NCBI RefSeq assembly: GCF_024692365.1 | Contig: NZ_JAILMR010000031.1 | Span: 1-33,009, forward strand | Direction: 5' to 3' | Source of the DNA: Ruminococcus sp. | GTDB lineage: Bacteria > Bacillota > Clostridia > Oscillospirales > Ruminococcaceae | DNA: 33,009 nucleotides | Part shown: positions 11,604 to 30,224 of the stretch, piece by piece | Numbering within the stretch: the first letter of the stretch is position 1 | How the letters are laid out: every line of letters starts with the position of its first letter | Position numbers and translations under genes: made by a program | Notes under the pieces: generated by a model | Database searches by the model: none | What the model saw: the letters and a program-made list of their open reading frames with translations, nothing else | What the model was told of the DNA's origin: nothing

Positions 11604-11607
11604 ATAT

Positions 11608-12566: not shown

Positions 12567-12595
12567 TTGACATAGTAGGATTTATATGGTATAAT
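12567..12595 (+). promoter_or_regulatory. Promoter of the glutamate-cysteine ligase gene
   Basis: TTGACA (12567-12572), 17-bp spacer, TATAAT (12590-12595). Full consensus. Confidence 0.88.
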
Positions 12596-12655
12596 TTTGA
12601 TATCATACTAAATACATCGGAATTATTGAATTAAAAATCAGAGGTGATAAGTAAG

Positions 12656-14041
12656 ATGAAACAGGAAAAGCTGAATGAAGCGCTGTACAATAAATATATA
12701 GCTCCTACCGAAAAATCGAGGACATCAGCAGTCGGCATCGAGATAGAACTGCCCGTTGTTGAGCTTTCGGGAAAAGCTGTGGAGGAAGATGTTGTTATAG
12801 CGACTGCTGATAAGTTCCGTGAGCATTTCGGGTTCGTTGCAGAGGGCGCTGATGATAACGGCAATATTAACTCCATGACGGACAAGGCTACGGGTGACAA
12901 TCTCTCTTTCGATTGTTCCTATTCAAATCTTGAACTGTCCCTTGGCAAGAACGATGACCTCAACGAAATACACGATACATTCAAAAAGTATTACAGTTAT
13001 CTGCAAAGTCTGCTTTTGCCGCAGGGCTACACTCTTACGGGCATGGGCATAAATCCTCATTATGATATAAACAAAAATGCTCCCGTACCCAACGAGCGCT
13101 ACCGTATGCTGTATCACTATCTCCATTCCTATCACAGGTATGAGGACGATATCAATATGCGTTTTCACAACAGACCCGATTTCGGCACGTTCACAAGTGC
13201 GTCACAGGTTCAGCTTGACGTGAGCCGCGATGACCTTATAGATACGCTGAATGTTTTCAATATGCTGGAACCTTATAAAGCGGTGCTTTTCGCGAATTCA
13301 TATCTGCCCGAATATCCCGAGTATCTCTGCTCCCGAAATATGCTTTGGGAGAAAAGTATGCAGGGGTACAATCCACATAATATAGGTATGTTCTCGAATC
13401 GCCTTGCGAATATCGATGAGCTTATCGAGTATATAAAATCCCAGTCTGTGTACTGCACTATGCGTGACGGAAAATACATAGATTTCAAGCCAATGGCAGT
13501 GCGTGATTACTTTGCGTGTGAAAAAGTCAGCGGTGAATATTTTGACGGCAGTGCTTACAAAACAGCCGAGTTTTCCCCGGATAAGGGCGACCTGCAATAT
13601 CTGCGTACATTCAAGTTTGAAGACCTGACATTCAGGGGCACGGTGGAATACCGCAGTTCATGCACTCAGCCCATAAAGGACGTTATGACGGTAGCCGCAT
13701 TCCACACAGGGCTTGCAGGCAGGCTGGGCGAACTTGCCGAGCTTATCGGGAATGACAGCGTGATATATTCCCACGGATATTCAGCTACGGAATTGCAGGA
13801 TATACTCTCCAAGCGTGATATACCCGATTTCATTGTTCGCAAAGGACTGAGCGAACAGCTTATCCGTATACTGGATATCGCTTCCGACGGATTAAAGGAA
13901 CGCTGCAAAAACGAAGAACATTTCCTCACACCGCTTTATGAACGCGCAGAAAAGCTGACAAATCCCTCCCGCGATATGTTAGAGGGAATATCAAGCGGAA
14001 AAGACCTGCTGCACTATATCAAAAAGTATTCTGAGATATGA
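12656..14041 (+). CDS. Glutamate-cysteine ligase family protein (GCS2-type)
   Basis: A 461-residue carboxylate-amine ligase. It would join glutamate and cysteine to gamma-glutamylcysteine using ATP in the cytoplasm. Family marks are VGIEIELPVVE near residue 30, where acidic residues bind Mg2+; GMGINPHYD; RYRMLYHYL; FGTFTSASQVQLDVS; and the FRGTVEYRSSCTQP block. The ATG at 12656 is preferred over a GTG at 12644 because GAGGTG then sits at a usual distance. It is transcribed alone from a consensus promoter and ends at a bidirectional terminator shared with the desulfurase operon. No glutathione synthetase follows, so the product could be gamma-glutamylcysteine itself or another gamma-glutamyl compound. 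Confidence in the family is high, in the exact substrate moderate. Confidence 0.82.
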   Translation: MKQEKLNEALYNKYIAPTEKSRTSAVGIEIELPVVELSGKAVEEDVVIATADKFREHFGFVAEGADDNGNINSMTDKATGDNLSFDCSYSNLELSLGKNDDLNEIHDTFKKYYSYLQSLLLPQGYTLTGMGINPHYDINKNAPVPNERYRMLYHYLHSYHRYEDDINMRFHNRPDFGTFTSASQVQLDVSRDDLIDTLNVFNMLEPYKAVLFANSYLPEYPEYLCSRNMLWEKSMQGYNPHNIGMFSNRLANIDELIEYIKSQSVYCTMRDGKYIDFKPMAVRDYFACEKVSGEYFDGSAYKTAEFSPDKGDLQYLRTFKFEDLTFRGTVEYRSSCTQPIKDVMTVAAFHTGLAGRLGELAELIGNDSVIYSHGYSATELQDILSKRDIPDFIVRKGLSEQLIRILDIASDGLKERCKNEEHFLTPLYERAEKLTNPSRDMLEGISSGKDLLHYIKKYSEI

Positions 14042-14052
14042 TACATGAAAAA

Positions 14053-14082
14053 TCTCCCCGAAAGTGAATTCCTTCGGGGAGA
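14053..14082. terminator. Bidirectional terminator between convergent genes
   Basis: A 10-bp perfect stem (TCTCCCCGAA/TTCGGGGAGA) with a 10-nt loop. It is flanked by AAAAA on the left and AACTTTTA on the right, so it works best for the minus-strand operon. Confidence 0.88.
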
Positions 14083-14087
14083 AACTT

Positions 14088-15203
14088 TTATCCGATGATA
14101 TCGTCAAGTATATTTATGAATCGTTCAAGTTCGTCGTCAGTTGTCAGGTGCGAAAGGCTTATACGCCATGAGGAAAGAGCGTTCTTTCTGTCGTGGGATA
14201 TCGCCATAACAGCACGCGATGGAGTATTCGCCACTGAGCAGGCAGATTTTACCGATACGCACACGCCTTTCTCGTCGAGCATACGGCGCATATCCTCGCC
14301 CTTTATGCCTTTTACCGATATGTTGAGTATATGCGGTACTGCATCATCGGGGCTGTTTATGCGGATATTGGTGTTCTTTGCGAAGTGTTCCCTTAGCCTC
14401 GCATTAAGATTGCATACACGCTCATATCTCTCATCGAACTCATTCACAGCATATCCCAGAGCTGCTGAAAGTGCAGCTATTGCAGGTGCATCCGGAGTAC
14501 CGCTGCGGTAGATGGTCGTGCTTGCACCGCCGTGTATCAGCGGTTCGATGATGATGCCTTTTTTCTTGTAAAGCACTCCGCTGCCTTTCAGCCCGTAGAA
14601 TTTGTGGGGCGCAAAACTGGCAGTATCTGCACATGAAAGGTCGTTATGTGTTTTGCCTATCGCCTGCGTAGCATCAACATGAAAACGGCAGTTGGGGTAG
14701 TTTTTCAGGATATCAGCTATCTCGGCTATGGGCTGAACTGTACCCAGTTCGCTGTCAACAGCGCATACCGCGCAAAGTACAGTATCATCGCGCAGCAGAT
14801 TTTTCAGATGCGTAAGATCGATCTTGCCGTCGTGGAGTATATTCACAAGATCTATCTCCCAGCCCTGTTCCTGCAAAAATGTAAGAGTACCGCTGACGGA
14901 ACTATGTTCAAGAAATGTGGATATGATATGCTTTCCTCTGCGCCTGTTTGAGTGGGCAATGCCCTTTATTGCAAGGTTGTTAGCTTCGCTGGCGCCGCTT
15001 GTGAATATAATTTCCTCAGGGGAGATATCCAGCAGTTCGGCAGTTTCTGCAAGAGCTGCATCAACTATCCCCTTAGCCGAATGTCCCATGCTGTGGGCAG
15101 AATTCGGGTTTGCAAAATTCACCCTCGCTGTTTCAAGATATACCGAAAGCACACGTTCATCGGGTGGAGTATCAGCAGAATAATCAAGGTAGATGTTATC
15201 CAT
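14088..15203 (-). CDS. Cysteine desulfurase (NifS/IscS-like)
   Basis: A PLP enzyme that removes sulfur from cysteine as a protein persulfide, giving alanine. The 371-residue protein starts MDNIYLDYSA. The base-stacking His is in LEHSS (about 100), the PLP lysine in APHKFYGLKG (201), and the persulfide Cys in VKSACSV (322). The start at 15203 has a GGAGGG site; its first 8 bp overlap the end of the PP-loop gene, so the two are translationally coupled. It is the third gene of an operon with an E1-like enzyme and a TtcA-like enzyme, which suggests it feeds sulfur to tRNA thiolation or a sulfur carrier. It could also feed the cofactor of the nearby nitrogenase-like enzyme; that is inference. Confidence 0.93.
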   Translation of the reverse strand: MDNIYLDYSADTPPDERVLSVYLETARVNFANPNSAHSMGHSAKGIVDAALAETAELLDISPEEIIFTSGASEANNLAIKGIAHSNRRRGKHIISTFLEHSSVSGTLTFLQEQGWEIDLVNILHDGKIDLTHLKNLLRDDTVLCAVCAVDSELGTVQPIAEIADILKNYPNCRFHVDATQAIGKTHNDLSCADTASFAPHKFYGLKGSGVLYKKKGIIIEPLIHGGASTTIYRSGTPDAPAIAALSAALGYAVNEFDERYERVCNLNARLREHFAKNTNIRINSPDDAVPHILNISVKGIKGEDMRRMLDEKGVCVSVKSACSVANTPSRAVMAISHDRKNALSSWRISLSHLTTDDELERFINILDDIIG

Positions 15204-16080
15204 TTTCACCCTCCGCCTTTGTGCCGCGCACACTTCTGCCTTCGTCAAATCTGTCTAGGAAATGGTGGTATTCATCACCCATGTGATATGAGATTATGGT
15301 CTGCAAATTAACGTTCTCCACGCTTCGGAAAATATTCATATCCACCGCAGGATTTACAGCACGAAGCTGTTTCAGCAGGTTCTTAACCTCCTGACGTTTT
15401 GAACCGCCTCCGCCGTTATCACACATGGTACAGTTCTCGGTGAATCGACAGGCACACTGGATAAACTGAAGATCGTTGTACTGCTTCCAATGGATAATAT
15501 CAGCTTCCCTGACCATATACAAGGGGCGTATCAGCTGCATACCCTCGTAATTTTCACTGTGAATCTTTGGCATCATAGTCTGCACCTGTGAACCGTAAAG
15601 CATACCCATAAGGATAGTTTCGATAACGTCATCAAAATGATGACCCAGCGCTATCTTGTTGCAGCCCATTTCCTTAGCGGTCTTGTAGAGGTATCCTCTT
15701 CTCATTCTTGCACAGAGGTAGCAGGGGTGTTCGTCCACCTTTGCAACTGCATCGAATATGCCCGTTTCAAATACCTGTATCGGTATATCGAGAGTTTCGG
15801 CATTCTCGATTATCTTCTGATAATTTATCTCGTTATATCCGGGGTTCATTACGAGGAAGACTACTTCAAACGGCACCTTTGAATACCTTTGCAGACGCTT
15901 CATGCAAAGCGCCATAAGCATTGAATCCTTGCCGCCCGAAATACAGACAGCTATCTTGTCACCCTCCTGTATCAGTTCGTAGTCTTTTATGCCTTTTAAA
16001 AATCTCGACCATATCTCACGTCGGAATTTCTTCACCACCGAAAGCTCGATGTCGTTGGGTATCACTATTTTTTTGCTCAT
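15196..16080 (-). CDS. TtcA-like PP-loop ATPase (tRNA 2-thiolation family)
   Basis: A 294-residue adenylating enzyme of the TtcA/TtuA group, which thiolates tRNA bases using an Fe-S cluster. The PP-loop is CISGGKDSM (about residues 46-54). The cluster cysteines are the CYLC pair (120, 123) and a third Cys in FIQCACRF (209 or 211), matching the CxxC plus Cys layout of TtcA. LGHHFDDVIETI (about 145-156) is the second conserved block. A later pair, CTMC, is near 217-220. The start at 16080 is preferred because AAGGAG lies 6 bp upstream; an ATG one codon earlier is possible. It begins 4 bp after the E1-like gene ends. The target base (C32 or another) cannot be told from sequence. Confidence 0.87.
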   Translation of the reverse strand: MSKKIVIPNDIELSVVKKFRREIWSRFLKGIKDYELIQEGDKIAVCISGGKDSMLMALCMKRLQRYSKVPFEVVFLVMNPGYNEINYQKIIENAETLDIPIQVFETGIFDAVAKVDEHPCYLCARMRRGYLYKTAKEMGCNKIALGHHFDDVIETILMGMLYGSQVQTMMPKIHSENYEGMQLIRPLYMVREADIIHWKQYNDLQFIQCACRFTENCTMCDNGGGGSKRQEVKNLLKQLRAVNPAVDMNIFRSVENVNLQTIISYHMGDEYHHFLDRFDEGRSVRGTKAEGENG

Positions 16081-16084
16081 CATA

Positions 16085-16897
16085 TTACTCCTTGCAAAGC
16101 TCGCATTCTTTTTCTTCAAAGTCGGTGGGCACAGTTATTGTGGGGTGTTCACCGCAGACAGCGCAGTATTTCACTTTGTTGGGAAGTTTTATCTTACGCC
16201 ATTCGTTTGTCAGACCATCAAATGTCAGCAGATATCCTGTCAGCATTTCACCCTGCCCCGTGAGATATTTTATGGCTTCAAGTGCCTGCATCGTACCTAT
16301 TATACCTGCCATTGCACCGATAACACCTGCCTCGCGGCATGAAGGCACAGCATCTTTCGGAGGCGGGGCTTCAAATATACAGCGGTAACAAGGCGATATG
16401 TCCGGCACATATGTCATCAGTTGACCTGTGAAACGCAGTATTCCTGCATGGGAGAAAGGCTTCTTAGCCAGTACGCAGGCATCGTTGATCAGGAATTTTG
16501 CGGCAAAATTATCCGTACCGTCGATGATGAAATCATAGCCGTCAATCAATCCAAGGATATTTGTGCTGTCTACTTTTATTTCGTAAGTCTTTACATTAAC
16601 ATCGGGGTTGAGAGCGTTTATTGTCTCTTCAGCAGAAGTGACTTTTGCCTTGCCGATATCGGATGTGGTATGTATTATCTGCCTTTGCAGATTTGAAAGC
16701 TCGACCTTGTCGCTGTCGGCAATACCTATGGTTCCCACACCTGCCGCTGCAAGATACATAGCTGCAGGTGAACCGAGGCCTCCTGCACCTATTATAAGTA
16801 CGCTTGAAGACAGCAGTTTTTTCTGACCGCGCACGCCGATCTCCTTCAGCGTGATATGCCTTGAATATCGTCCGAGCTGTTCATCGGTGAGTGCCAT
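16085..16897 (-). CDS. ThiF/MoeB/HesA-type E1-like adenylyltransferase
   Basis: A 270-residue enzyme that adenylates the C-terminal Gly of a ubiquitin-like sulfur carrier (ThiS/MoaD type) so that it can accept sulfur. Seen: RYSRHITLKEIG start block, nucleotide loop GAGGLGS (37-43), the acidic DxDxVxLSNLQRQ block (61-73), GTDNFAAK, catalytic Cys187 in PSCREAGV, and zinc pairs CYRC (170, 173) and CAVC (245, 248). An extra CELC pair lies at the C terminus. An AAGGAG site precedes the ATG. It is first in a three-gene operon. No gene for a ubiquitin-like carrier is visible in the window, so its partner is unknown. MoeB versus ThiF cannot be separated here. Confidence 0.9.
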   Translation of the reverse strand: MALTDEQLGRYSRHITLKEIGVRGQKKLLSSSVLIIGAGGLGSPAAMYLAAAGVGTIGIADSDKVELSNLQRQIIHTTSDIGKAKVTSAEETINALNPDVNVKTYEIKVDSTNILGLIDGYDFIIDGTDNFAAKFLINDACVLAKKPFSHAGILRFTGQLMTYVPDISPCYRCIFEAPPPKDAVPSCREAGVIGAMAGIIGTMQALEAIKYLTGQGEMLTGYLLTFDGLTNEWRKIKLPNKVKYCAVCGEHPTITVPTDFEEKECELCKE

Positions 16898-16926
16898 TTT
16901 CTCATCTCCTTTGAAATATCTTATCT

Positions 16927-16955
16927 ATTATATCACCATAATCATACTAAGTCAA
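16927..16955 (-). promoter_or_regulatory. Promoter of the E1/TtcA/desulfurase operon
   Basis: Read on the minus strand: TTGACT (16950-16955), 17-bp spacer, TATAAT (16927-16932). It is about 30 bp upstream of the first start codon. Confidence 0.85.
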
Positions 16956-16995
16956 TAGTTTTAATATGTTATTTACATACATACCATAGAAAAAT

Positions 16996-17030
16996 TCACC
17001 TCGGTTCTGGTATTATAAGACCTGAGGTGA
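16996..17030 (+). promoter_or_regulatory. Inverted repeat overlapping the ribosome binding site of the rhodanese-TusA-DsrE gene
   Basis: Perfect arms TCACCTC (16996-17002) and GAGGTGA (17024-17030) extend as an imperfect stem inwards. The right arm is the ribosome binding site, 5 bp before the ATG at 17036. Between the arms is TGGTATTAT, which looks like an extended -10 box. The repeat could be an operator over that promoter, or a hairpin hiding the ribosome binding site if transcription begins further upstream. Confidence 0.5.
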
Positions 17031-17035
17031 AGCAT

Positions 17036-18061
17036 ATGGAAGATACTGTCATTAAAAATATCACCGCAGAGGACTTTCTTGCACTCGGAAAAAGCGGTGT
17101 AACGATACTTGATATACGTGAAAAGGACGATGTTCTTGTATCTCCGATAGATGGCGCTGTGAATATCCCGTTCTCTGAAATAACATCGGGATTATCGGCT
17201 CTTGACATAGCAAAGTCCGTGTATGTTATCTGCAAAACAGGTGAACTCAGCGAGGAAGTCACCGAGATACTGACTGACCGCGGGTATGATGCGTACAACG
17301 TCATCGGAGGATATGATGCATTAAACGAATGTGCAAAGAACGCTAAACCTGCTGAACTTGACCTGCACGGGATTTGCTGTCCCGGTCCTGTAGTCAGGAC
17401 GGCTGAATTGCTGAAAAGTATGCATGATGGCCAGCGCGTACATATACTGTCGGACGAAGCTGCATTTTCTTCCGATATAGCCGTGTGGTGCGAAAGAACG
17501 GGCAACACTCTCGTAAGCCTTGAAAACAATGGTGGAGAGATAAGTGCCGTGATCGAGAAATGCCATCCCGGGAAATCGTCTGCGGAACGTACTCATGGTA
17601 AGACCTTTGTGCTGTTCAGCGGTGATCTCGACAAGACAATAGCAGCATTCATCATGGCTAATGCGGCTGCATCAATGGGCAGACAGGTCACGCTGTTCTT
17701 TACTTTCTGGGGGTTGAATATCCTGCGCCGACCGGAAAAGGTGAAGGTCGGAAAAAAATTCATCGAGAAAATGTTTGGCATGATGATGCCAAGAGGGACA
17801 AAGCAGTTGGGACTCTCACGAATGAATATGGGCGGAATGGGCGCAAAAATGATACGCTTCATAATGAAAAGCAAGGGCGTAAGTTCCCTTGAAGAGCTGA
17901 TAAATTCAGCCCAAAAGCAAGGCGTGCGGCTGGTAGCCTGTCAGATGTCAATGGATATAATGGGTATCAGGCAGGAGGAACTTATCGACGGCGTTGAGCT
18001 TGGTGGTGCCGCAACATTTATTGGTTCCGGAGAACAGAGCGATATGAGCTTGTTTATCTGA
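17036..18061 (+). CDS. Rhodanese-TusA-DsrE three-domain sulfurtransferase
   Basis: A single 341-residue chain with three sulfur-transfer domains. Residues 1-100 are a rhodanese domain with Cys66 in YVICKTGE. Residues 105-180 are a TusA domain with the CPGP motif (Cys115, with an extra Cys114). Residues 188-341 are a DsrE2-like domain starting KTFVLFSGDLDK, with FFTFWGLNILRRP and Cys302 in VACQMSMDIMG. The same three domains occur at the C-terminal end of some CoA-disulfide reductases; here the flavin reductase part is absent. It would pass persulfide sulfur from one cysteine to the next in the cytoplasm. The ATG at 17036 fits the GAGGTGA site. It is divergent from the E1/TtcA/desulfurase operon and convergent with the nitrogenase-like operon. 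Confidence 0.88.
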   Translation: MEDTVIKNITAEDFLALGKSGVTILDIREKDDVLVSPIDGAVNIPFSEITSGLSALDIAKSVYVICKTGELSEEVTEILTDRGYDAYNVIGGYDALNECAKNAKPAELDLHGICCPGPVVRTAELLKSMHDGQRVHILSDEAAFSSDIAVWCERTGNTLVSLENNGGEISAVIEKCHPGKSSAERTHGKTFVLFSGDLDKTIAAFIMANAAASMGRQVTLFFTFWGLNILRRPEKVKVGKKFIEKMFGMMMPRGTKQLGLSRMNMGGMGAKMIRFIMKSKGVSSLEELINSAQKQGVRLVACQMSMDIMGIRQEELIDGVELGGAATFIGSGEQSDMSLFI

Positions 18062-18076
18062 TAACATAAGTATAAA

Positions 18077-18107
18077 CACCGCATCGGAATATTTCTCCGA
18101 TGCGGTG
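18077..18107. terminator. Hairpin between convergent operons
   Basis: A 12-bp perfect stem (CACCGCATCGGA/TCCGATGCGGTG) with a 7-nt loop. The following sequence is only partly T-rich on either side (TTTATACTT on the minus strand), so termination is likely but not certain. Confidence 0.7.
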
Positions 18108-18142
18108 CCAGTCATTTATTCAGCTTGTGTTTGAGTGTCAGA

Positions 18143-19111
18143 TCATACAGCCTTCCACTTTATAAGCTTTTTCTCCGCGATATCCAGCAGAACATTAAGC
18201 ACTGTTATTACTGTGCCTACAACGAATATTCCCGCAAGCACTCTGGAATAATCTGCGTAGTCGGAATACTTCTTGATGAAGAAGCCAAGTCCGCTGGTGG
18301 CACCTATCATTTCTGCCATTATGAGTATCATGAATATTGTTGATATCTGTATTTTAAGGCTGCCGACTATCGAGGGTATGCTGTATGGCAGTATCACCTT
18401 GAAAAGCATTGTTGGTGTGCTGACGTTCATTGCCTTTGCCGAATCTATAAGTCGGCTGTTCATGCTGTTCACCCTGTTTATCATTCCAAGGAATATAGGC
18501 CAGAACATTCCTATGCCTATGACTGCGATCGATGCTGATGTGAATGTGGGCATAAGTGCTATCAGGTAAGGTGTATACACCATAGGCGGTATCGGGCTGA
18601 GGACTTTCGCCACGGGAGTAAGATCGTCGTTCAGCCGCTTTACCCAGCCCACCAGCATTCCAAGTATATTTCCTGTGATGAGTGCTATCGAAAATCCGAC
18701 GACCAGTATCATCAGCGAATGTGCTATACCTTCGCCGATAAACTCAATGTCGTCCCTGAATACCGTGAAAACTCTTTCCATGGGCGGTGATAAAACAGGG
18801 TTGCCTTTTCCGAGTATCCTGAATACTATATCCCACAGCAGAAAAAGTGCATAGATGGTAACTGCGATATCGGGGTGGTACTCATTCTTTTTTATTACTG
18901 CTTTTGCTATATTGTATACCCAGATGATTCCCATTATCAGAACATAAACCTGATTATCTTTGATGCTTATCCTGCCTTCTACAAAGGACAGTCCTATCAC
19001 AGCAGCTGCGAATACTGTAACGGTCACTATGTTCAGTATTACTTTTACAAGCGGGATTTTGTTTTCGCTTATCTCTGTTTCAAATGTATTTAGTGCTTTT
19101 GTTTGTGTCAT
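18143..19111 (-). CDS. ABC transporter permease, nitrate/sulfonate/taurine type
   Basis: An inner membrane permease of the SsuC/TauC family, 322 aa. The C-terminal 200 residues hold the usual five to six helices and the coupling motif in DSAKAMNVSTPTMLFKVILPYSIPSI. The N-terminal 110 residues add about three more membrane segments beyond the usual 250-270 residues. The AGGAGA site is well placed. Its ATG overlaps the stop of the ATPase gene by 4 bp. It is the last gene of the seven-gene operon, so it probably imports the substrate of the nitrogenase-like enzyme encoded upstream. The compound is not evident from sequence. Confidence 0.9.
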   Translation of the reverse strand: MTQTKALNTFETEISENKIPLVKVILNIVTVTVFAAAVIGLSFVEGRISIKDNQVYVLIMGIIWVYNIAKAVIKKNEYHPDIAVTIYALFLLWDIVFRILGKGNPVLSPPMERVFTVFRDDIEFIGEGIAHSLMILVVGFSIALITGNILGMLVGWVKRLNDDLTPVAKVLSPIPPMVYTPYLIALMPTFTSASIAVIGIGMFWPIFLGMINRVNSMNSRLIDSAKAMNVSTPTMLFKVILPYSIPSIVGSLKIQISTIFMILIMAEMIGATSGLGFFIKKYSDYADYSRVLAGIFVVGTVITVLNVLLDIAEKKLIKWKAV

Positions 19112-19887
19112 GCAGATCTCCTCTTGACTTCTGTAAACAGATCAAGCAGCTCATGCCGCAGCTGATCGTATCTCTTGGTTCTTATAAGTTCCTCTCGTGT
19201 GGTATCCGATGGCAAACCAACATTTACCTGAGTTTTGATCTTATGGGGTTCCATGAAGTATACCTTGTCAGCCAGAACAAGTGCTTCATCAATATCGTGG
19301 GTGATGAATACCACAGTCTTTTTCTCACCGCGCTTTTTGCAAAGTTCGATGCTCAGCTCCTGCAATTCTATGCGCTTCTGCGGGTCGATAGCTCCGAAAG
19401 GTTCGTCCATGAGGAGTATATCCGTATCCATGGCGAAAGCTCTTGCAAGTGCAACACGCTGCTGCATTCCGCCTGAAAGTTCGTGAGGATATTTGTTTGC
19501 ACTGTCAGCAAGTCCCACCAGTTCAAGATATTCTTTAGCACGACTTGCTATGTCTTTTTTGTTTTTGAGTATCCCCGCTTCCCTGATACCGAACATGATG
19601 TTCTTTTTGGCTGTCAGCCACGGGAAAAGAGAATAGTGCTGGAATACCATTCCTCTGTTAACATCGGGACCTGTAATGGGCTTGTCATTTATAAGTATCT
19701 CGCCCTTTGTCGGAAACTGCAATCCCAGCAGCAGTGACACAAGCGTACTCTTGCCGCAGCCCGAGGGACCGATAAGGCAGGCGAACTCACCCTCCTCGAT
19801 CTTGAAGCTGAGATCCTCCAGTATGTTTACAGCTTTGTTATTATCCTTATAGCGGAATGTTACATTGCGGAATTCTATCTTACTCAT
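19108..19887 (-). CDS. ABC transporter ATPase, nitrate/sulfonate/taurine type
   Basis: The energy subunit of the importer, 259 aa, of the SsuB/TauB family. Walker A is GPSGCGKST (about 39-47), the Q-loop lies in MVFQHYSLFPW, the signature is LSGGMQQR, Walker B is ILLMDEPFGAID and the switch His is in FITHDIDEA. All catalytic parts are present. The start has AGGAGG 8 bp upstream. It sits between the substrate-binding lipoprotein and the permease in the same operon, with a 4-bp overlap with the permease. Confidence 0.94.
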   Translation of the reverse strand: MSKIEFRNVTFRYKDNNKAVNILEDLSFKIEEGEFACLIGPSGCGKSTLVSLLLGLQFPTKGEILINDKPITGPDVNRGMVFQHYSLFPWLTAKKNIMFGIREAGILKNKKDIASRAKEYLELVGLADSANKYPHELSGGMQQRVALARAFAMDTDILLMDEPFGAIDPQKRIELQELSIELCKKRGEKKTVVFITHDIDEALVLADKVYFMEPHKIKTQVNVGLPSDTTREELIRTKRYDQLRHELLDLFTEVKRRSA

Positions 19888-19945
19888 TATCGATTCCTCC
19901 TTATAAAATATCTTCTGTTATATTGTTCTTATACCGTCACGGATA

Positions 19946-21043
19946 TCAGACATCGTATTTATCCGAGAATTCTTTCAGCGCCAGATAATCGGGATCATCG
20001 GGATATTCTTCAAGTATCTGATCCAGTGCTTCGCGGAATATCTCGGTGTTGACATTTCCGCTTATATCAGCGTCCTTGATTATGCCCTCACCTATAAGGT
20101 AAGCCGCATAGTCTACAACTCTTGCCCTTGCGGGATCGGGGTTGTACCTTGAAGCGTAATCTCCGTAGAGTGCTTCGGTAACATATTCTTCTGTCTGACC
20201 TGTCTGCCTTACCATTATTTCTATGGCATCGTCGTGATTATTGAGTATCAGCTTGTATGCCCTTATCAGACCTCTCTGGTAAGCTACAAGTTCATCGTGC
20301 TTCTTTTCTATAACAGCTGTGCTTGTAGTCTGACGGCAGCAGGGATAGCAGGGGTCGATATCACCAACTTTTATTCCGCAGACGAGCCCGAAATTCTTTG
20401 CGGTCTGTACGCCGTCCGCTGTGATATAGCCTACATCTACCTGACCCTTTGATACCGCCTGAACGATGGAAGTATCATCATTCAGGTAGTCGATCTCGAT
20501 ATCCTGTTCGGGAACTATGCCTATCTCACGGAGTTTTGCGCGTATGATATTATCACCTGTGTAGCTTCTGGCTGATGCCCATTTCTTGCCTGCCCAGCCC
20601 GAAAGTTCAGCAAACTGATCGGCATTTTCGGGAGTTGTTATTATAGCTCCGCCCTCCTGTGCAGAACCGCCAAAGAATACAAGATCCTGTCCCTCAGCCA
20701 TGAACTGGAGCTGTAATGTGATACCAACAGGTACCACATCTACCTTACCCTCGGAAAGTGCAGTCAGGCTGTCAGCTGTTGAGAGCAGAACATCACAGTT
20801 AACTGTAACGCCCTCCTGTTCAAAATAGTCCTGGTCGTAAGCTATGGTGGTCAGCGCTGATTTTATTGATGACGGGAACCACGCAACTTCCAGTGTTCCG
20901 ATATTCTCTTTATATACGGCATTCTCATCTTTTTTGCCGCCTTTGTTTCCCTTTGAGGAGCTTCCGCATGATGTCAGCGTTCCAAAAAGCACAGCTGCTG
21001 AAATGAACGCGGCTACATATTTTTTCACAGTATTCTTTCTCAT
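19946..21043 (-). CDS. Substrate-binding lipoprotein, NMT1/SsuA/TauA-like (COG0715)
   Basis: A 365-residue extracytoplasmic solute receptor for the ABC importer. It has a basic N terminus, a hydrophobic stretch and a lipobox LTSC (Cys26), so it would be anchored as a lipoprotein. A short Gly/Lys linker leads to an NMT1-like domain starting LEVAWFPSSIKSALTT. An unusual PCYPCCRQTTS stretch puts three cysteines at 232-236; PCCR-like segments occur in some members of this family, but the role is unknown. It lies 21 bp after the NifD-like gene, which ties transport to that enzyme. Known ligands of the family include sulfonates, taurine, nitrate and thiamine precursors. An organosulfur compound is the best fit to the neighbours; this is inference. 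Confidence 0.87.
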   Translation of the reverse strand: MRKNTVKKYVAAFISAAVLFGTLTSCGSSSKGNKGGKKDENAVYKENIGTLEVAWFPSSIKSALTTIAYDQDYFEQEGVTVNCDVLLSTADSLTALSEGKVDVVPVGITLQLQFMAEGQDLVFFGGSAQEGGAIITTPENADQFAELSGWAGKKWASARSYTGDNIIRAKLREIGIVPEQDIEIDYLNDDTSIVQAVSKGQVDVGYITADGVQTAKNFGLVCGIKVGDIDPCYPCCRQTTSTAVIEKKHDELVAYQRGLIRAYKLILNNHDDAIEIMVRQTGQTEEYVTEALYGDYASRYNPDPARARVVDYAAYLIGEGIIKDADISGNVNTEIFREALDQILEEYPDDPDYLALKEFSDKYDV

Positions 21044-21064
21044 ATTATATATCTTCCTTTGCGT

Positions 21065-22618
21065 TTAAATGTTGGGATTATCGGTCTCGGGGAGTCCTGT
21101 TATGTAGTGATAAGGGCTCTTTCCGTACCACTGTTCCTGATACGGCAGCTTGGTATGCTGTGATAGATTTCTCGCATAAGCCGTATTTTTCAGCGTCCTC
21201 TCTATCCTCTTTGCAAGGGAGTATGCTCCCGTAAATCCGAAGTATGTAAATCTCTGGGCGAACAACGTCAGCGACGGCACACCTGCCTTCACAAGCCACA
21301 CGCCGACCGAGGGGTGAGATATGGCAATATCGGGTTTTAGCTTGTATACCATGTTTACAAGTTCGTTCGCCTGAGTTGATACCGCATTCTGCACATCGCC
21401 AATCTTTTCCTGAACTTCGCTGAACAGCTGGTCGCCGAATTCATCGTAATTGAAATTTCTGAATCCTATTACTTTGAGACCTATCTCATCAGCCAGCAGA
21501 CCTGTTGCACCGATACGCAGAAATCCGCCGCTTATCAGAACGCTCTTGCCTTCAACATTTTTCCTTATGGGTTCAAGTGCCTTTTTCAGCTTTTCAGTTT
21601 CCTTTTTCAGGAGAGCTTCCGCTTCCTTTTCAAGTCCGAAGAACTCAGCTATTGCTGTCACGAATTTCACTGTCTGCTCGGTTCCTATGGGTATAGTGGG
21701 AAATATGTATGGTATGCCGAACTCACGTTTCAGGAATTCAAGGAAATATACATCGTGTACATGACAGAAGCTTACGTTCAATGCGGCTTCGGTTATGAAT
21801 CTCCAGTCATCGGGTTCTTTGTATTCCACAAAAGTACGGACATTCAGCCCAATGGCTTCAAGCAGTCTTTTGATCTCTTTTTCATCTCCGGGTCCTATCG
21901 ACCAGGCGTTGTACAGGTGTACGGTACGGCTCTTTTTGAATTCGTAACGCTGCTTTTTTATCTCGTAATCGGGGTCGCTTTTGTCAAAGGGGGTATAGTC
22001 GATATATTTCTTGGGCTCGAACCCGAATCTGTGCATGATGCCATGGTAAACAACATCATATGCCGATGAGAATACCTTAGCACCAAAGCCGGGGCAGTGC
22101 AGCGGCACAACTGTTGCAGTCACCTGCTCCTGTGCACGGTTGACCACGTTTTCGATATCATCTCCGATAACGCCGGGGGCGCAGGTGTTGCAGACGAATA
22201 TCGCAGTCGGACGGAATCTTCTGTCAGCTTCCAGTATCGTATCATACAGCTTTTCGTTACCGCCGCGGATAACGTCTGTTTCGTTGAGGTTTGTGCTGAG
22301 CCATCTTGCGCCTTCCATTTTTACACCGCGGGCTGCACCATACTGCTTTATGCTGAAATCAATTCCGTGGGACTGTGAACCGCAGCCAACGGGTCCGTGC
22401 ATTATCACAACGGAATCCTTGGTCGAGAAAGATATCAGTGTCGATACGCCCATCTGGCAGAACATCGCCTGTGTAAAACTACGGTCGCATCTTCCGAGAC
22501 ATCCCGCACAGGAACCTTTTCTCAGATCGCTGGTACATCCGCCGAAAGCATATGCCGTAGCCCTCTGCCTTTCTCTGGGATTTGGAAACTGCACATCAAA
22601 GTTTACATCAAATTTCAT
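21065..22618 (-). CDS. Nitrogenase component 1-type protein, NifD-like (alpha) subunit
   Basis: A 517-residue homologue of the nitrogenase alpha subunit. Cys ligands for a P-cluster-like centre appear retained: an N-terminal cluster (Cys28, 37, 40, 44), Cys79 in HGPVGCG and Cys146 in CNTCAPGVIGDD. By eye, FCHVHDVYFLEFLKREFGIPY (Cys285) aligns with the NifD segment holding the FeMo-cofactor ligand Cys275. The segment around NifD His442 has no His here (LFAQRFTYFGFTG). That pattern fits nitrogenase-like reductases outside nitrogen fixation, such as methylthio-alkane reductase. Homologues work with an NifH-like ATPase, which is not in this window. Neighbours are CysK, NifX-like and a sulfonate-type importer, so reduction of a sulfur compound is the likely job. 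The ATG lies 6 bp after the NifK-like gene. Confidence 0.88.
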   Translation of the reverse strand: MKFDVNFDVQFPNPRERQRATAYAFGGCTSDLRKGSCAGCLGRCDRSFTQAMFCQMGVSTLISFSTKDSVVIMHGPVGCGSQSHGIDFSIKQYGAARGVKMEGARWLSTNLNETDVIRGGNEKLYDTILEADRRFRPTAIFVCNTCAPGVIGDDIENVVNRAQEQVTATVVPLHCPGFGAKVFSSAYDVVYHGIMHRFGFEPKKYIDYTPFDKSDPDYEIKKQRYEFKKSRTVHLYNAWSIGPGDEKEIKRLLEAIGLNVRTFVEYKEPDDWRFITEAALNVSFCHVHDVYFLEFLKREFGIPYIFPTIPIGTEQTVKFVTAIAEFFGLEKEAEALLKKETEKLKKALEPIRKNVEGKSVLISGGFLRIGATGLLADEIGLKVIGFRNFNYDEFGDQLFSEVQEKIGDVQNAVSTQANELVNMVYKLKPDIAISHPSVGVWLVKAGVPSLTLFAQRFTYFGFTGAYSLAKRIERTLKNTAYARNLSQHTKLPYQEQWYGKSPYHYITGLPETDNPNI

Positions 22619-22624
22619 ATCATA

Positions 22625-23959
22625 TTACCTCCCCGATACCTGTGCTGTTATAAGATCTTCCAGCAGTGCAAGTCCGCCGTTGAAGCCCGTGTAAGTGTGG
22701 TTTAGAATTATTCGGCTGCTCACGGGAAAGCTCGTGTTTAGCAGATTGCCGTTAAGAGTCTGTGCAAGTTTTCTGTCGATGGAACTGCCCAGCACAAAAG
22801 CAGGATCGAGTTTATCATAATATGTGTCGGATAAAAACTGCGGACGTTTTTGCAGGATATACTGCTGTATCTTGAAAGTATCAGTCTCAAATACCAACTC
22901 GGGACGGTTCTCAAATGGTATAGCTTCAAAACTTTCTCTGATGAGCTGCTTGGTCTTGTCCCTCAGTTCATCGGTTATGAAGATATACTCGGGCAGCCAG
23001 CCTATCTCATTATCGAGATATTTTGCATAAGGCAAAGCCTCAGTCACGTTGTTTATGACAACAGCATAGTTCTGGAAATCCGTATCAGCTATGACATCGG
23101 TCGCTCTGTCAATGTAGCTGTAATAGCGGTCTATCTCCTTTGCGAGAGCCTTTCTGACGTACTCTTCATCTATGCCCAGCTTTTCTGCCACTGCCAGCGC
23201 AAATTCAACAGATGCATTGCTGCCGATAGGAAGATCTGTAACTATATAATCGATACCGTGCTTTTCCTTTGCCGCCTTTGCAGCTCTTACTCCGTTAACA
23301 GGAGAAAGCACTACATTCAGCTCGGCTTTTCCTGCATTTTTTATATCCTCTATTGTCTGGTCGGGTGTTACGAATGTTGTCGCCTTTACACCGATAAGAG
23401 AAAGTATTCTTCTGAGTTCTTCAAGATCTCCTCTGAAAAATGGATCGTAAGCAGGTACAAGTCCCAGCAGATTAACGAGCCTGTCGTCCTTTTCTTCGGA
23501 TACAGGTATGAACTGTTCAAAAAGGCTTCTTATAACGATGTCATATCCATAGTAGGAATTTCCTTTGAATCCGCCTGTATCCACAAATATCAGAGGATAT
23601 TCCGGTCTTTCGACTTCGCTTATCACCGATTCCACATCATCGCCTATCAGGTCTGTCATACAGCTTGTTACAACTACGAAAAGATCGCCGTCCATTACTT
23701 CATAAGCAGAAAGAATTTCTTGTTTCAGACGTTCAGCACCGCCGAAGATTATCTCCTTTTCGCTTACGTTCGAGCTTGGCAGCGAAGCGCCGCCGCAGTA
23801 CCCTACTCCAAGATATCCGCCGTATGCAAACGAATTTGTCAGCTGACCGCCGCAGCCCTGTGCGCCGTGTATTATCGGTATCACTCTCGGCAGAGATGTC
23901 AGCGTTGCGAGGGCACCTCCCAGCATACATGAAAATCTTGGTCTTTCTATAAATGACAT
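22625..23959 (-). CDS. Nitrogenase component 1-type protein, NifK-like (beta) subunit
   Basis: A 444-residue partner of the NifD-like protein. Three cysteines match the beta-subunit P-cluster ligands: Cys11 in RFSCMLGG, Cys36 in HGAQGCGGQ and Cys100 in VTSCMTDLIGDD. Another Cys is at 55. The VLSPVNGVRAAKAAKEKHGI and YIVTDLPIGSNASVEF segments follow the usual order of the component 1 fold. The ATG at 23959 is chosen because AAGGAGG sits just upstream; a longer reading to 23983 would overlap cysK and contain that site. Lengths of both subunits are shorter or similar to NifD/NifK, and no NifE/NifN pair is seen. These could in principle be NifEN-type scaffolds, but the retained alpha Cys285 and the context favour an enzyme. 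Confidence 0.87.
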   Translation of the reverse strand: MSFIERPRFSCMLGGALATLTSLPRVIPIIHGAQGCGGQLTNSFAYGGYLGVGYCGGASLPSSNVSEKEIIFGGAERLKQEILSAYEVMDGDLFVVVTSCMTDLIGDDVESVISEVERPEYPLIFVDTGGFKGNSYYGYDIVIRSLFEQFIPVSEEKDDRLVNLLGLVPAYDPFFRGDLEELRRILSLIGVKATTFVTPDQTIEDIKNAGKAELNVVLSPVNGVRAAKAAKEKHGIDYIVTDLPIGSNASVEFALAVAEKLGIDEEYVRKALAKEIDRYYSYIDRATDVIADTDFQNYAVVINNVTEALPYAKYLDNEIGWLPEYIFITDELRDKTKQLIRESFEAIPFENRPELVFETDTFKIQQYILQKRPQFLSDTYYDKLDPAFVLGSSIDRKLAQTLNGNLLNTSFPVSSRIILNHTYTGFNGGLALLEDLITAQVSGR

Positions 23960-23975
23960 TTGCTTTTCCTCCTTA

Positions 23976-24923
23976 TCATGCAAGCTCCGCAGGCTGATCG
24001 AACAGTGCGGTACTCAGGTAACGTTCTCCTGTATCGGGCAGAAGAACAACTATCCTTTTGCCCTTGTTTTCCTTGCGCTTTGCAAGCTGTATCGCTGCAA
24101 AAAGTGCCGCTCCCGAAGATATGCCCACCAGCAGACCTTCTGTCCTTGCTGCTGTTCTTGCAGTTTCGAGTGCTTCCTTGTTCTTGACCCTGAATATCTC
24201 ATCGATCACATCTCTGTCAAGTATATTCGGCACGAATCCTGCACCTATTCCCTGTATAGCGTGAGCTCCCGGGGCTTCACCCGAAAGTACCGATGAATCA
24301 TAGGGCTCAACTGCTATCACTTTCGTGTTCGGGTCATTTTCCTTTAATGCTTTGCCTGTTCCCGTGACAGTTCCGCCCGTACCTACACCTGCGATGAAGT
24401 AATCTGCCTTTCCGTCGGTATCCCTGATTATCTCCTGCGCAGTCGTTCTGTTGTGTACTTCGGGATTTGCAGGGTTATCAAACTGCTGTGGTATAAATGA
24501 ATCTTCTATCAGTGCGTTCAGTTCCTCTGCCTTTCTAATTGCACCTTTCATGCCATCGGCAGCGGGCGTGAGAACAACTTTTGCACCCAGCTGAGTTACA
24601 AGCTTTCTGCGTTCCACCGACATACTTTCGGGTATAGTGAGTATCACGTTATAACCCTTTACCGCACCCACGAACGCAAGACCAATGCCCGTATTTCCGC
24701 TTGTGGGCTCGATTATGGTCGAACCGGGTTTAAGAAGTCCCTTTTGCTCTGCGTCCTCTATCATTGCAAGTGCTATCCTGTCCTTTACACTCCCCAGCGG
24801 ATTGAAAAACTCCACCTTTGCGAGTATCTCGCCGTAAAGTTCTTCTTCTCCCGCGATACGGTTCAGCTTTACAAGAGGCGTATTGCCTATCAGCTCCGTT
24901 AAGTTTTCTGCGATCTTTGACAT
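23976..24923 (-). CDS. cysK: Cysteine synthase A (O-acetylserine sulfhydrylase)
   Basis: A PLP enzyme that makes cysteine from O-acetylserine and sulfide in the cytoplasm, 315 aa, normal length. The N terminus has [13 protein letters not shown], the PLP lysine is in NPLGSVKDR (about 46), the substrate loop is [10 protein letters not shown], the phosphate loop [12 protein letters not shown], and GISSGAAL is near the C terminus. The start is 6 bp downstream of the NifX-like gene and 16 bp separate its end from the NifK-like start. Placement inside the nitrogenase-like operon suggests that it captures sulfide, or another thiol, released by the reductase. Cystathionine beta-synthase is less likely because there is no extra C-terminal domain. 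Confidence 0.95.
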
Positions 24924-24929
24924 ATTACT

Positions 24930-25280
24930 TCACCTTTCCTTACCTGTCCTTGATCTGTACTCTGCGATCTTGCTGATCACATATTGTGTATCATATCCGG
25001 ACATCTCAAAATATTTTTTCTTTTGAATTTCAAAGTATCTCTGTATCTTGCTGCCTATCCGAGCAGCGATAACATACTGACATTCTTCAACGATCGCCAA
25101 CCTTTCTTCTGCGCCGCTGTGATCTCCGCTGCAGCCTTCGGAACTTCCGAGATCCACGGTCTTTTCTATAACAGGTATGCCATCGTCTATCCTGTAAATA
25201 TCGAACCGTGAAGCCGACCCGAAATGCTGATCAACTTTCACGCCGTCCGCTGTTGCCACTGCGATACGATATTGACTCAT
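24930..25280 (-). CDS. NifX/NafY-like iron-molybdenum cofactor-binding domain protein (116 aa)
   Basis: A small single-domain protein of the dinitrogenase iron-molybdenum cofactor family (NifX, NafY, C-terminal part of NifB). The hallmark is VDQHFGSASRFDIYRID (about residues 17-33), and AERLAIVEECQYVIAARIG is the second conserved block. Such proteins bind Fe-S cofactor precursors or the cofactor and keep it for insertion. The ATG at 25280 follows AAGGAGAG; a longer reading would start inside that site. As first gene of the operon it supports the idea that the NifD/NifK-like proteins hold a complex metal cluster. Stand-alone members exist in many anaerobes without nitrogenase, so the link rests on the operon. 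Confidence 0.85.
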   Translation of the reverse strand: MSQYRIAVATADGVKVDQHFGSASRFDIYRIDDGIPVIEKTVDLGSSEGCSGDHSGAEERLAIVEECQYVIAARIGSKIQRYFEIQKKKYFEMSGYDTQYVISKIAEYRSRTGKER

Positions 25281-25313
25281 ATTTTTTACTCTCCTTATCA
25301 TATTTTTTTATAG

Positions 25314-25339
25314 CTATCGGTTTTACTTATAACCAATAG
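25314..25339. promoter_or_regulatory. Inverted repeat in the leader of the nitrogenase-like operon
   Basis: Arms CTATCGGTT (25314-25322) and AACCAATAG (25331-25339), 8 of 9 positions matching, 8-bp gap. It lies about 40 bp downstream of the -10 box and 34 bp before the start codon. It may be an operator or an RNA hairpin. It does not match a regulator site I can name. Confidence 0.45.
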
Positions 25340-25377
25340 ATTTGTTTTATAAGCTATGTTGTTCTTTATCGAAAATT

Positions 25378-25405
25378 ATTATATCATATAATTTGATTTC
25401 GTCAA
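25378..25405 (-). promoter_or_regulatory. Promoter of the seven-gene nitrogenase-like operon
   Basis: Read on the minus strand: TTGACG (25400-25405), 16-bp spacer, TATAAT (25378-25383). A degenerate copy of the GATAACGTTATC palindrome starts 11 bp upstream of the -35 box. Confidence 0.78.
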
Positions 25406-28661: not shown

Positions 28662-29450
28662 ATGAGTTCATATATAAAAATAGAAGGACTATATAAGACT
28701 TTCAAAAATAAAAAGGAAGAAAACCAAGTCCTGAAGGGTATCGACCTTGATATCGAAAAAGGTGATATCTTCGGTATAGTCGGTTTTTCGGGAGCAGGAA
28801 AATCTACTCTCGTGAGATGCATAAACCGTCTTGAAGAACCCGACGGAGGAAAGATATTCATCGGTGATACCGAGATAACTTCACTGAATAAAAAGCAGCT
28901 CACCGAGCGCCGCAAAAAGATAGGCATGATATTTCAGCAGTTCAATCTTTTTGATTCGATGACGGTATTCCAGAATATAGCATATCCGCTGAAACTGCTG
29001 GGCACTTCAAAAAAGGACATCGAGATAAAAGTCGATAAGCTGTTGAAACTTGTTGGACTTTCGGATAAGAAAAATGCCTATCCCGGTTCACTCTCCGGCG
29101 GACAGAAACAGCGTGTGGGTATAGCAAGGGCACTCGCGAATGACCCCGATGTGCTTTTATCGGACGAAGCTACAAGCGCTCTCGACCCGGTATCAACTCT
29201 CTCAATACTAGACCTGCTGGAGCAAATAAACAAGGAACTGGGAGTCACAATAATAATGATAACCCACGAACTTGAAGCCGCAAAGCGGATATGCAACAGG
29301 GTGGCTGTTCTGGAAAGCGGCGTGATAACCGAAACAGGCAGTACAAAGGATATCTTCCTTGACCCGCAAAGCAACACAGGAAAGATATTCCTTGAAGTAT
29401 ACAAAGAGTTCAGACATGATAATTCATTTACAGGAGGTGAGGGAATTTGA
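28662..29450 (+). CDS. metN: Methionine-type ABC transporter ATPase, short form
   Basis: The ATPase of a MetNIQ importer for methionine or a related sulfur amino acid, 262 aa. Walker A is GFSGAGKST (about 41-49), then IGMIFQQFNLFDSMTVFQNIAYPL, signature LSGGQKQR, Walker B VLLSDEATSALDP and the switch His in MITHELEAA. These segments are typical of MetN. Most MetN proteins have about 340 residues with a C-terminal NIL/ACT domain that binds methionine and inhibits transport; that domain is absent here. The nearest ribosome binding site (AGGGG) is far from the ATG, so translation start strength may be low. The last 4 bp overlap metI. Confidence 0.9.
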   Translation: MSSYIKIEGLYKTFKNKKEENQVLKGIDLDIEKGDIFGIVGFSGAGKSTLVRCINRLEEPDGGKIFIGDTEITSLNKKQLTERRKKIGMIFQQFNLFDSMTVFQNIAYPLKLLGTSKKDIEIKVDKLLKLVGLSDKKNAYPGSLSGGQKQRVGIARALANDPDVLLSDEATSALDPVSTLSILDLLEQINKELGVTIIMITHELEAAKRICNRVAVLESGVITETGSTKDIFLDPQSNTGKIFLEVYKEFRHDNSFTGGEGI

Positions 29451-30157
29451 GTTTTTTGAAATTTCCTTTCTGGGACGTAGTAAAGCACGCATTCAGCAAA
29501 GAGGTCTGGGATGTTCTTCTCCCCGCGGTATGGGATACATTGTACATGGTAGCGTTTAGCGCAGTTATAACCCTTGTTTTAGGCGTACTGCTGGGGATAG
29601 CTCTTTCGGTCATAGCGAAAGACGGCGTAAGACCCGTACCTGTACTGAATGAAACAGCAGGCACGATAGTCAACTGTTTAAGATCACTGCCGCAGATGAT
29701 AATGATAATCATAACACTGCCGATCGCACGAATGTTACTGGGACAAAGCTACGGCGTAAATGCTTGTATAATCGCACTGGCGGCAAGCTGTATACCGATG
29801 TACGCAAGACTGGTACAGGGTGCATTTGTTGAGATACCAAAGGGCAAGATCGAAGCTGCAAAGGCAATGGGCAGCAGCTCGGCGGCGATAGTTTTCAAGG
29901 TCATGCTCCCCGAAGCGATACCCTCTATAATAAGAGGTTTCACGGTAGCACTGATAGGAATAATCTCCATGACTGCACTAGCAGGCAGTTTCGGTGCGGG
30001 CGGTATCGGAGATATCGCGGTGAGATTCGGATTCAACAGATTCTACCATGATATGCTGATAGCATCTGTGCTGGTACTTATTGTAATGGTGGAGATAGCC
30101 CAGATCTTCGGCGACCTTATATCAAACCTGATACTCAAAAAAAGACATCTTATTTAA
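29447..30157 (+). CDS. metI: Methionine-type ABC transporter permease
   Basis: A 236-residue permease with about five membrane segments. The coupling motif is in EAAKAMGSSSAAIVFKVMLPEAIPSI, quoted here in part, and SMTALAGSFGAGGIGDIA is typical of MetI. The start is TTG at 29447, overlapping the metN stop, with AGGAGGTGAG just upstream. Length is normal for the family (about 220). It works with MetN and MetQ in the cytoplasmic membrane. Confidence 0.93.
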   Translation: MSFLKFPFWDVVKHAFSKEVWDVLLPAVWDTLYMVAFSAVITLVLGVLLGIALSVIAKDGVRPVPVLNETAGTIVNCLRSLPQMIMIIITLPIARMLLGQSYGVNACIIALAASCIPMYARLVQGAFVEIPKGKIEAAKAMGSSSAAIVFKVMLPEAIPSIIRGFTVALIGIISMTALAGSFGAGGIGDIAVRFGFNRFYHDMLIASVLVLIVMVEIAQIFGDLISNLILKKRHLI

Positions 30158-30224
30158 ACAGTTACAGGCAAAAGCCTAACATAAAACAAAGGAAAAGTAA
30201 AATGAATTTTAGGAGGAAATTATT

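Follow-up and report, generated by a model that had tools for sequence, protein, structure and literature searches.

The window, by which we mean the whole 33,009-nucleotide stretch of Ruminococcus sp. DNA analysed here (contig NZ_JAILMR010000031.1, our C112, of a 3.68-Mb genome, labelled G000, which is 93.8% complete), contains a seven-gene operon in which a NifD/NifK-like pair is joined to cysteine synthase (CysK) and an ATP-binding cassette (ABC) importer. We propose, with a probability of roughly 55%, that this is an anaerobic organosulfur-scavenging operon: an organosulfur compound would be imported, its C-S bond would be cleaved reductively by the NifDK-like complex, and the resulting sulfide or thiol would pass to CysK. 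Judged by profile scores, trees and residues, the pair is neither a nitrogenase, nor NifEN, nor the solved methylthio-alkane reductase (Mar). The proposal is built on the genes observed, their co-occurrence, the phylogeny of the pair, its ligand residues, the NifH and NifB genes found on another contig and the failure to detect a sulfite reductase domain; from these we infer the cofactor content, C-S cleavage, the identity of substrate and product, and the sharing of NifH and NifB.

A seven-gene operon around a NifD/NifK-like pair

The host genome is Ruminococcus albus-like and the operon is real at 18143-25405, with the following features.

25378..25405, minus strand: sigma-70-type promoter, TTGACG-16-TATAAT (sequence reading)
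25314..25339, minus strand: candidate operator (weak), a 26-bp dyad, CTATTGGTT-N8-AACCGATAG, between the promoter and the first gene
24930..25301, minus strand: NifX-like protein of the iron-molybdenum cofactor (FeMo-co)-binding type (PF02579; Pfam 51.1 bits, cut-off 26.3)
23976..24923, minus strand: CysK, cysteine synthase A (TIGR01139; 446.8 bits, cut-off 350.95)
22625..23983, minus strand: NifK-like subunit (PF00148; 223.6 bits)
21065..22618, minus strand: NifD-like catalytic subunit (PF00148; 237.6 bits)
19946..21043, minus strand: solute-binding lipoprotein (SBP), SsuA/NMT1-like (PF09084; 46.0 bits, cut-off 20.5)
19108..19887, minus strand: ABC transporter ATPase, nitrate/sulfonate type (PF00005, over cut-off)
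18143..19111, minus strand: ABC transporter permease, nitrate/taurine/sulfonate type (PF00528, over cut-off)
18068..18107, minus strand: hairpin and T-rich tract, likely terminator, between the permease and a convergent gene ending at 18061

An earlier note on this DNA had described seven genes behind a single promoter, some of them overlapping and the others separated by 6 to about 60 bp. This description is borne out: seven minus-strand open reading frames (ORFs) are present in the order NifX-like, CysK, NifK-like, NifD-like, SBP, ATPase and permease, profile models agree with the broad family assigned to each, the successive gaps measure 6, -8, 6, 21, 58 and -4 bp, and the promoter was found at its place. 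From a by-eye reading of internal start sites, the true starts of NifX and of the NifK-like gene are probably 25280 and 23959, respectively. The NifX-like protein scored 36.5 bits against TIGR02663 (nifX), below the cut-off of 112. By ORF list and profiles, genes for NifH and NifB are absent from the operon, which is therefore not self-sufficient, a point that the earlier note had missed. A scan which finds close relatives only gave R. albus 8 (96%) and R. albus AR67 (95%) as the nearest named relatives of the NifD-like gene, followed by three Ruminococcus metagenome-assembled genomes (MAGs; 94, 89 and 89%), R. flavefaciens UBA2946 (85%) and a Bacillota MAG (69%).

Read by eye, the promoter is also recognisable upstream of NifX at three related loci (L013, L014 and L015) and was not seen at two others (L016 and L019). 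The dyad is perfect in the window, has a counterpart with 3 mismatches at the corresponding position of L014, and takes only a looser form in L013 and L015; at 3 mismatches the pattern also matches unrelated sites (window 31141, L014 4206 and L015 1220). On the 3' side of the permease a perfect 12-bp hairpin (approximately 18077-18107), followed by TTTATACTT, was located by eye rather than by a terminator scan. An Rfam scan of the window returned two tRNAs only, with no riboswitch family at gathering score.

Phylogeny and active site of the pair

With every nitrogenase, NifEN and Bch model, both the NifD-like (D) and the NifK-like (K) protein scored below cut-off. The best PDB chain for K was 9d9u_C, whose sequence is identical in 9fmg (262 bits; next 108), and those for D were 9fmg_A and 9d9u_A (190 and 189 bits; next 9p1x_A at 127). 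9FMG is the MarDKH complex (PMC12552129; statements from the literature refer here to the available part of each paper). Membership of the Bch or Cfb groups is unlikely on scores, as the pair missed their model cut-offs and gave PDB scores far below those for Mar. The idea that the pair is nitrogenase-like yet outside N2 fixation is supported, with Mar as its nearest PDB relative.

The tree set comprised 56 D-K pairs from the window, named relatives, two plasmids and other genomes, together with MarDK and four references of Nif/Vnf/EN type. Concatenated D+K trees were built with FastTree on 57 taxa and with IQ-TREE on 35 of them, chosen by hand. Omitted from these were L024_2 and L090_2, in which K is cut off, and the near-identical L014 and L015; all four do enter the residue counts and the trees built from D or K alone. 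Two of the pair searches scored at most three candidates per genome, and their counts are accordingly lower bounds; several second pairs or partial matches from these, in G687, G888, G487, G541 and G253, were left unfetched, as were many matches of a further search.

IQ-TREE placed eight of the 35 taxa in a Mar-like clade and 21, including the window, in a second clade, each with an ultrafast bootstrap (UFBoot) of 100. FastTree gave the same split on 57 taxa, and both clades were recovered in the D-only and K-only trees, where the window's clade had local support of 0.999 and 1.0. In concatenated, D-only and K-only trees alike, the pair groups outside the clade of MarDK, in a clade sister to it. 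The second clade holds 32 D rows; within it, a subclade of nine loci from Ruminococcus, L018, L090 and L091 (UFBoot 100 in IQ-TREE) is referred to below as the window clade. Two pairs, L024_1 and L101_3, fit neither clade by their residues and join the Mar-like clade at UFBoot 93. The earlier note had named placement among NifEN scaffolds as a refutation, and no such placement was found: the pair lies apart from the NifEN branch of Rhizobium etli, from the Nif/Vnf references, and from a Nostoc pair adjoining vnfDK, labelled VnfEN here, for which the annotation reads only nitrogenase component 1.

The P-cluster positions are conserved throughout the second clade, with Cys54, Cys79 and Cys146 of D in 32/32 rows, Cys44 and Cys108 of K in 32/32, and Cys19 of K in 31 with one gap. 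By alignment, Cys285 and His435, which occupy the columns of MarD Cys270 and His429, are likewise present in all 32 rows. Such ligand positions predict that a P-cluster and a Mar-type, Fe-only cofactor are bound by the enzyme. A nitrogenase or alternative nitrogenase would also keep the P-cluster and cofactor Cys positions, and Arg368 (32/32) is aligned with an Arg found in NifD of R. etli and in VnfD of Nostoc, which we take to be Arg359 of NifD. However, the NifD His442 column has no His in any of the 32 rows, the nitrogenase models were missed by both subunits and the trees set the pair outside Nif/Vnf, so that we regard this reading as extremely improbable.

The surroundings of the cofactor differ from those in Mar. 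PMC12552129 proposes Arg428, adjoining His429, as a hallmark of Mar; its column is Arg in 23/23 Mar-like rows and a gap in 32/32 second-clade rows. Since R. etli NifDK, NifEN and Nostoc VnfDK (three of the four Nif/Vnf/EN references) are also gapped there, Arg428 may be a gain of the Mar-like clade. The column of MarD Phe199 is Tyr in every second-clade row, and Tyr187 is one of the residues by which the clade is marked as invariant. MarD Trp195 is kept in 23/23 Mar-like rows as against 7/32 of the second clade, with Phe in the window, and His375 in 23/23 as against 19/32, with Asn in 12, the window among them. Conversely, no Mar-like row has His288, Asp289 or Arg368, all three of which are invariant in the second clade, and position 387 is basic (Arg/Lys) in 31/32 rows versus 0/23. 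Judged from this pocket, the enzyme probably does not act on the substrate of Mar. Two further residues, Cys40 of D (30/32) and Cys63 of K (29/32), are specific to the clade, occur together in 27/32 pairs and are not P-cluster positions; an extra cluster or a redox switch is possible.

These residues bear directly on whether the pair might be an ordinary methylthio-alkane reductase, converting thioethers such as 2-(methylthio)ethanol to methanethiol for capture by CysK or another pyridoxal phosphate (PLP) enzyme. MarDK are the closest solved relatives and both cofactor ligand positions of MarD are kept; moreover, pocket positions 73, 74 and 194 vary in both clades, and their variation within the Mar-like one means that a changed pocket is by itself no proof of another substrate. 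We nevertheless consider the identification with Mar unlikely, given that the pair is sister to the Mar-like clade and not inside it, that Arg428 and Phe199 are absent from all 32 rows, with Trp195 and His375 replaced in the window, and that the genome already has a Mar-type set, bearing Arg-His, on contig C46 (see below). The earlier note had argued, from the link with CysK and an importer, for a substrate different from that of known systems. The changed pocket favours such a difference; the link alone does not, as it is also seen in the Mar-like clade and was in print in 2012.

Gene neighbourhood, importer, and the probable source of NifH and NifB

Neighbours were counted within 6 kb on the same strand, using profile thresholds which we set ourselves, in stretches cut by contig ends. 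Among the nine loci of the window clade, CysK and the permease occur at 9/9, the SBP at 8, the ATPase at 7, NifX at 7, NifH at 3 and NifB at 2. Other Ruminococcus thus have much the same gene set, as do three Bacillota of more remote kinship, and the operon structure, whose absence from related genomes the earlier note had named as refuting, is kept; six of the nine loci are from Ruminococcus, so that the support comes from about four lineages. Of the remaining second-clade pairs, 14/23 have CysK or MetY nearby and 11/23 ATPase plus permease; the corresponding values in the Mar-like clade are 14/22 and 7/22. These counts suggest that the sulfur link is broad, and that what characterises the window clade is the combination of CysK with the importer. 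K stands ahead of D in 25/32 second-clade pairs versus 2/22 Mar-like ones.

The more distant members of the window clade carry additional genes. L090 has the order B-X-H-CysK-K-D-SBP-ATPase-permease in one direction, followed by a second set, H-CysK-D-K; L018 has H-CysK-K-D-SBP-ATPase-permease-CysK; and in L091 H and B lie 3' of D. NifH and NifB are thereby tied to the pair, since they adjoin it in L090 and L091 (NifH alone in L018). The operon CysKs of these three loci are 69-72% identical to that of the window, and the other copies in L018 and L090 61-65%. Genes for a cystathionine-lyase-type enzyme (below cut-offs) and a C-S lyase of the PatB family (450.5 bits, cut-off 340) come after the operon at L019.

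By its profile scores, the importer is of the nitrate/sulfonate/taurine type and reaches no equivalog cut-off. The ATPase matched SaoA (222.5 bits) and ntrCD (214.5 bits), and the permease ntrB (90.5 bits), SaoP (78.6 bits) and TauC (77.8 bits), all below cut-off; the SBP gave 61.9 bits with the SsuA-family model TIGR01728 (cut-off 163.5). The profile scores agree with the link of the pair to CysK and to an importer of this type that the earlier note had described.

NifH and NifB are encoded elsewhere in the genome, in a cluster on contig C46 (L020, G000:C46:48000-66500) that runs at 11811-18499 of the stretch fetched through CysK-like, NifX, NifB, NifH, D, K and NifX genes, with a MetY/MetB-type fragment at its edge. 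The C46 D protein has Arg-His as in MarD and is 42% identical to MarD, which marks this enzyme as Mar-type. The C46 NifH exceeds the nifH cut-off (462.9 bits versus 394.35), NifB matches TIGR01290 at 263 bits, below the cut-off of 343.65, and the C46 D and K proteins also reach no nitrogenase cut-off. Within the L020 stretch fetched, no SBP or permease of the window importer type scored. A NifB homologue was present in 11/11 genomes tested, nine of them from the window clade. NifH and NifB are likely shared between the window pair and the Mar-type enzyme of C46.

This arrangement also invites the reading that the window pair is a NifEN-like scaffold which matures the cofactor of the C46 enzyme; having a NifX-like gene and no NifH or NifB of its own, the operon has the make-up that a maturase might show. 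We think this very unlikely. The pair lies outside the NifEN reference branch and shares its operon with an importer and CysK, and two genomes of the same genus keep a C46-type cluster (L110 and L115) without a close match to the window D, the best matches being at 32% (G158) and, along part of the sequence, at 37% (G065).

Two other contigs carry further nitrogenase-like genes. C97 (L021) has at 6815-11562 a set of H, D-like and K-like genes with few P-cluster cysteines. An assignment of this set as Isr, a nitrogenase-like sulfonate system, was dropped because only two P-cluster positions are present in its D and one in its K, a pattern that fits another clade of PMC3464626. In a scan of nitrogenase models, the C97 D, the only one scanned of the other three PF00148 matches of the genome, had no match at 1e-15. 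On C131 (L022), a K-like gene at 12553-13907 adjoins HypF-like and HypD-like genes, as read by eye, a setting that resembles the hydrogenase-maturation-linked clade of PMC3464626.

The window contains other genes of sulfur metabolism. Adjoining the operon at 14088-18061 are genes for a cysteine-desulfurase-like protein (by eye), a TtcA-like protein, ThiF/MoeB and a rhodanese-TusA-DsrE2 fusion; all but the first of these also have relatives near the L014 operon. On the other flank, at 28662-31082, is a MetNIQ-like importer, with PF03180 over cut-off and scores below cut-off for MetN (307 bits), MetI (148 bits) and the MetQ/NlpA family (126 bits). Farther away, at 3928-8488, an AMP-binding enzyme, a PLP decarboxylase-type protein and an MBOAT acyltransferase stand in a row, which by their families is a small biosynthetic or cell-envelope cluster. 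Plasmid pTS2 of Treponema saccharophilum (L025) carries at 4800-23796 an island of MetY, CysK, NifB, NifX, NifH, two Mar-like DK pairs and an importer related to that of the window, which suggests that such systems can move.

Sulfur metabolism, proposed mechanism and comparison with known systems

CysK uses sulfide. No match to PF01077, the sulfite/nitrite reductase domain, was detected in the window genome by a search that was positive in 11/14 control genomes. In view of this result, the product is more likely to be sulfide or a thiol than sulfite, which would be of little use to this host. PF01077 occurs in one of the nine window-clade genomes (G221; for six of the nine, reached via L013-L016, L018 and L019, the completeness is not stated) and in 84/197 genomes of the family. 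The family genomes with such pairs have it in 1/11 cases as against 83/186 of the others (Fisher p 0.026, uncorrected for kinship); these 11 carriers were picked by hand by a best E of at most 3e-29 and include G027, which is outside the trees.

The same results bear on an alternative in which a sulfonate is imported and cleaved with release of sulfite, as in Isr. The sulfonate/taurine/nitrate-type importer is in its favour, because SsuCAB serves isethionate use together with IsrBHDK in Rhodobacter capsulatus, as growth tests showed (PMC11423573, 2024). By the description there, however, IsrD lacks the equivalents of Cys275 and His442 and two P-cluster cysteines, retaining one, whereas the window D has the Cys275 equivalent and three; IsrB is BciD-like, whereas the C46 NifB matches TIGR01290, if below its cut-off. 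In addition, a sulfite reductase domain was detected neither in the window genome nor in 7/8 of the other window-clade genomes. An Isr-like sulfonate reductase is in our view quite unlikely.

For the scavenging operon which we favour, the following course of events may be envisaged. The SBP, permease and ATPase would import a small, probably anionic, organosulfur compound. NifB from C46 would build the cofactor, the NifX-like protein may carry its precursor, and the NifDK-like complex would hold a P-cluster and an Fe-only, [Fe8S9C]-type cofactor by way of Cys285 and His435. Electrons would be supplied by the C46 NifH, driven by ATP, and the C-S bond would be broken reductively on the Fe-S-C cofactor. 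The sulfur would leave as sulfide (or thiol), and CysK would join the sulfide to O-acetylserine to give cysteine.

In a bolder version, possible although doubtful, the pair would represent a second class of [Fe8S9C]-cluster reductases, apart from both nitrogenase and Mar, which takes up an organosulfur anion brought in by the importer and releases its sulfur as sulfide, rather than as thiol or sulfite, for a dedicated CysK; at its boldest, a sulfonate would be reduced fully to sulfide. The pocket has the invariant His288-Asp289, near the cluster-binding Cys285 in sequence, and the conserved Arg/Lys 387, which could bind the anion. If true, such a class would allow anaerobes without sulfite reductase to make cysteine from organic sulfur.

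Several findings weigh against the scavenging proposal or parts of it. An AlphaFold2 model of D from a five-row alignment (mean predicted local distance difference test score, pLDDT, 40.7) was unusable, leaving the pocket without support from a structure model. The SBP had no PDB relative at E 0.01, and its similarity to SsuA is sub-threshold only. The operons of L016 (9569-11660) and L019 (9608-11801) lack the ATPase gene, the SBP being followed directly by the permease, so that the ATPase must come from elsewhere in these two, and the divergent importer of L091, with a permease 29% identical to that of the window, implies that the substrate may differ even within the window clade. Four other strong CysK homologues are present in the window genome, and the operon CysK need therefore not be dedicated. 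With the genome 93.8% complete, the absence of sulfite reductase is not proof, and a PAPS (3'-phosphoadenylyl sulfate) reductase-type domain, PF01507, was matched on C73 (25.7 bits, cut-off 22.5). Finally, outside the family PF01077 is found in 15/19 genomes with such pairs, for which reason sulfite could still be the product in the wider clade; a general claim that carriers are without sulfite reductase was dropped, as it holds in the window clade and the family and fails beyond.

Of the known systems, the MarBHDK enzyme of Rhodospirillum rubrum is the nearest (PMC12552129). It is the closest solved structure and shares with the window pair the six P-cluster cysteines, the positions of the cofactor Cys and of the loop His, and a role in sulfur metabolism. 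It differs in that the window pair belongs to a sister clade, lacks Arg428, has Trp195, Phe199 and His375 replaced and has K before D, and in that the window operon possesses CysK and an importer and no counterparts of marH and marB. PMC12552129 describes Mar as the only nitrogenase-like enzyme to have the large nitrogenase cofactors, which serve C-S cleavage there.

Isr is a second precedent, which the earlier note had missed: in PMC11423573 a nitrogenase-like system is proposed to act in C-S cleavage with an SsuABC-type importer in sulfur assimilation. It is unlike the window system in that it releases sulfite, a product for which the window genome gave no match to a reductase domain.

Associations of this kind have been noted before. 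Dos Santos et al. (PMC3464626, 2012) reported that NifE/N-like proteins bearing Cys275 commonly occur with O-acetylhomoserine sulfhydrylase or cysteine synthase, and that other nitrogenase-like genes adjoin ABC transporters. Their set, for which Syntrophobotulus glycolicus is named, resembles the window pair in keeping Cys275 and lacking His442; the available part of that paper neither separates the clade from Mar nor proposes a function for it, and the loop His does not figure there as a ligand. Group IV-A genes, MetY and CysK have been linked to mlp clusters (PMC10418091), which parallels the joining of nitrogenase-like and sulfur genes in the window operon. A nifK/nifD operon with cysteine synthase is reported from a termite-gut spirochete (PMC13067680, 2026), and several unassigned NflDK pairs from a heliobacterium (PMC9147875). 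No description of the R. albus operon was found in the titles and beginnings of abstracts that made up the literature searched.

Within that literature, the split into two clades, an active site with His and without Arg that has invariant residues of its own, the repeated occurrence of CysK with the importer in one subclade, and a NifH and NifB that are probably shared appear to be new. Perhaps Ruminococcus and its relatives possess a route to cysteine sulfur that has escaped recognition, and the results point to two nitrogenase-like enzymes in one cell that share NifH and NifB. With its ligand positions kept and much of its pocket changed relative to Mar, the clade offers a natural experiment on how one and the same cofactor is directed to different reactions by the protein around it.

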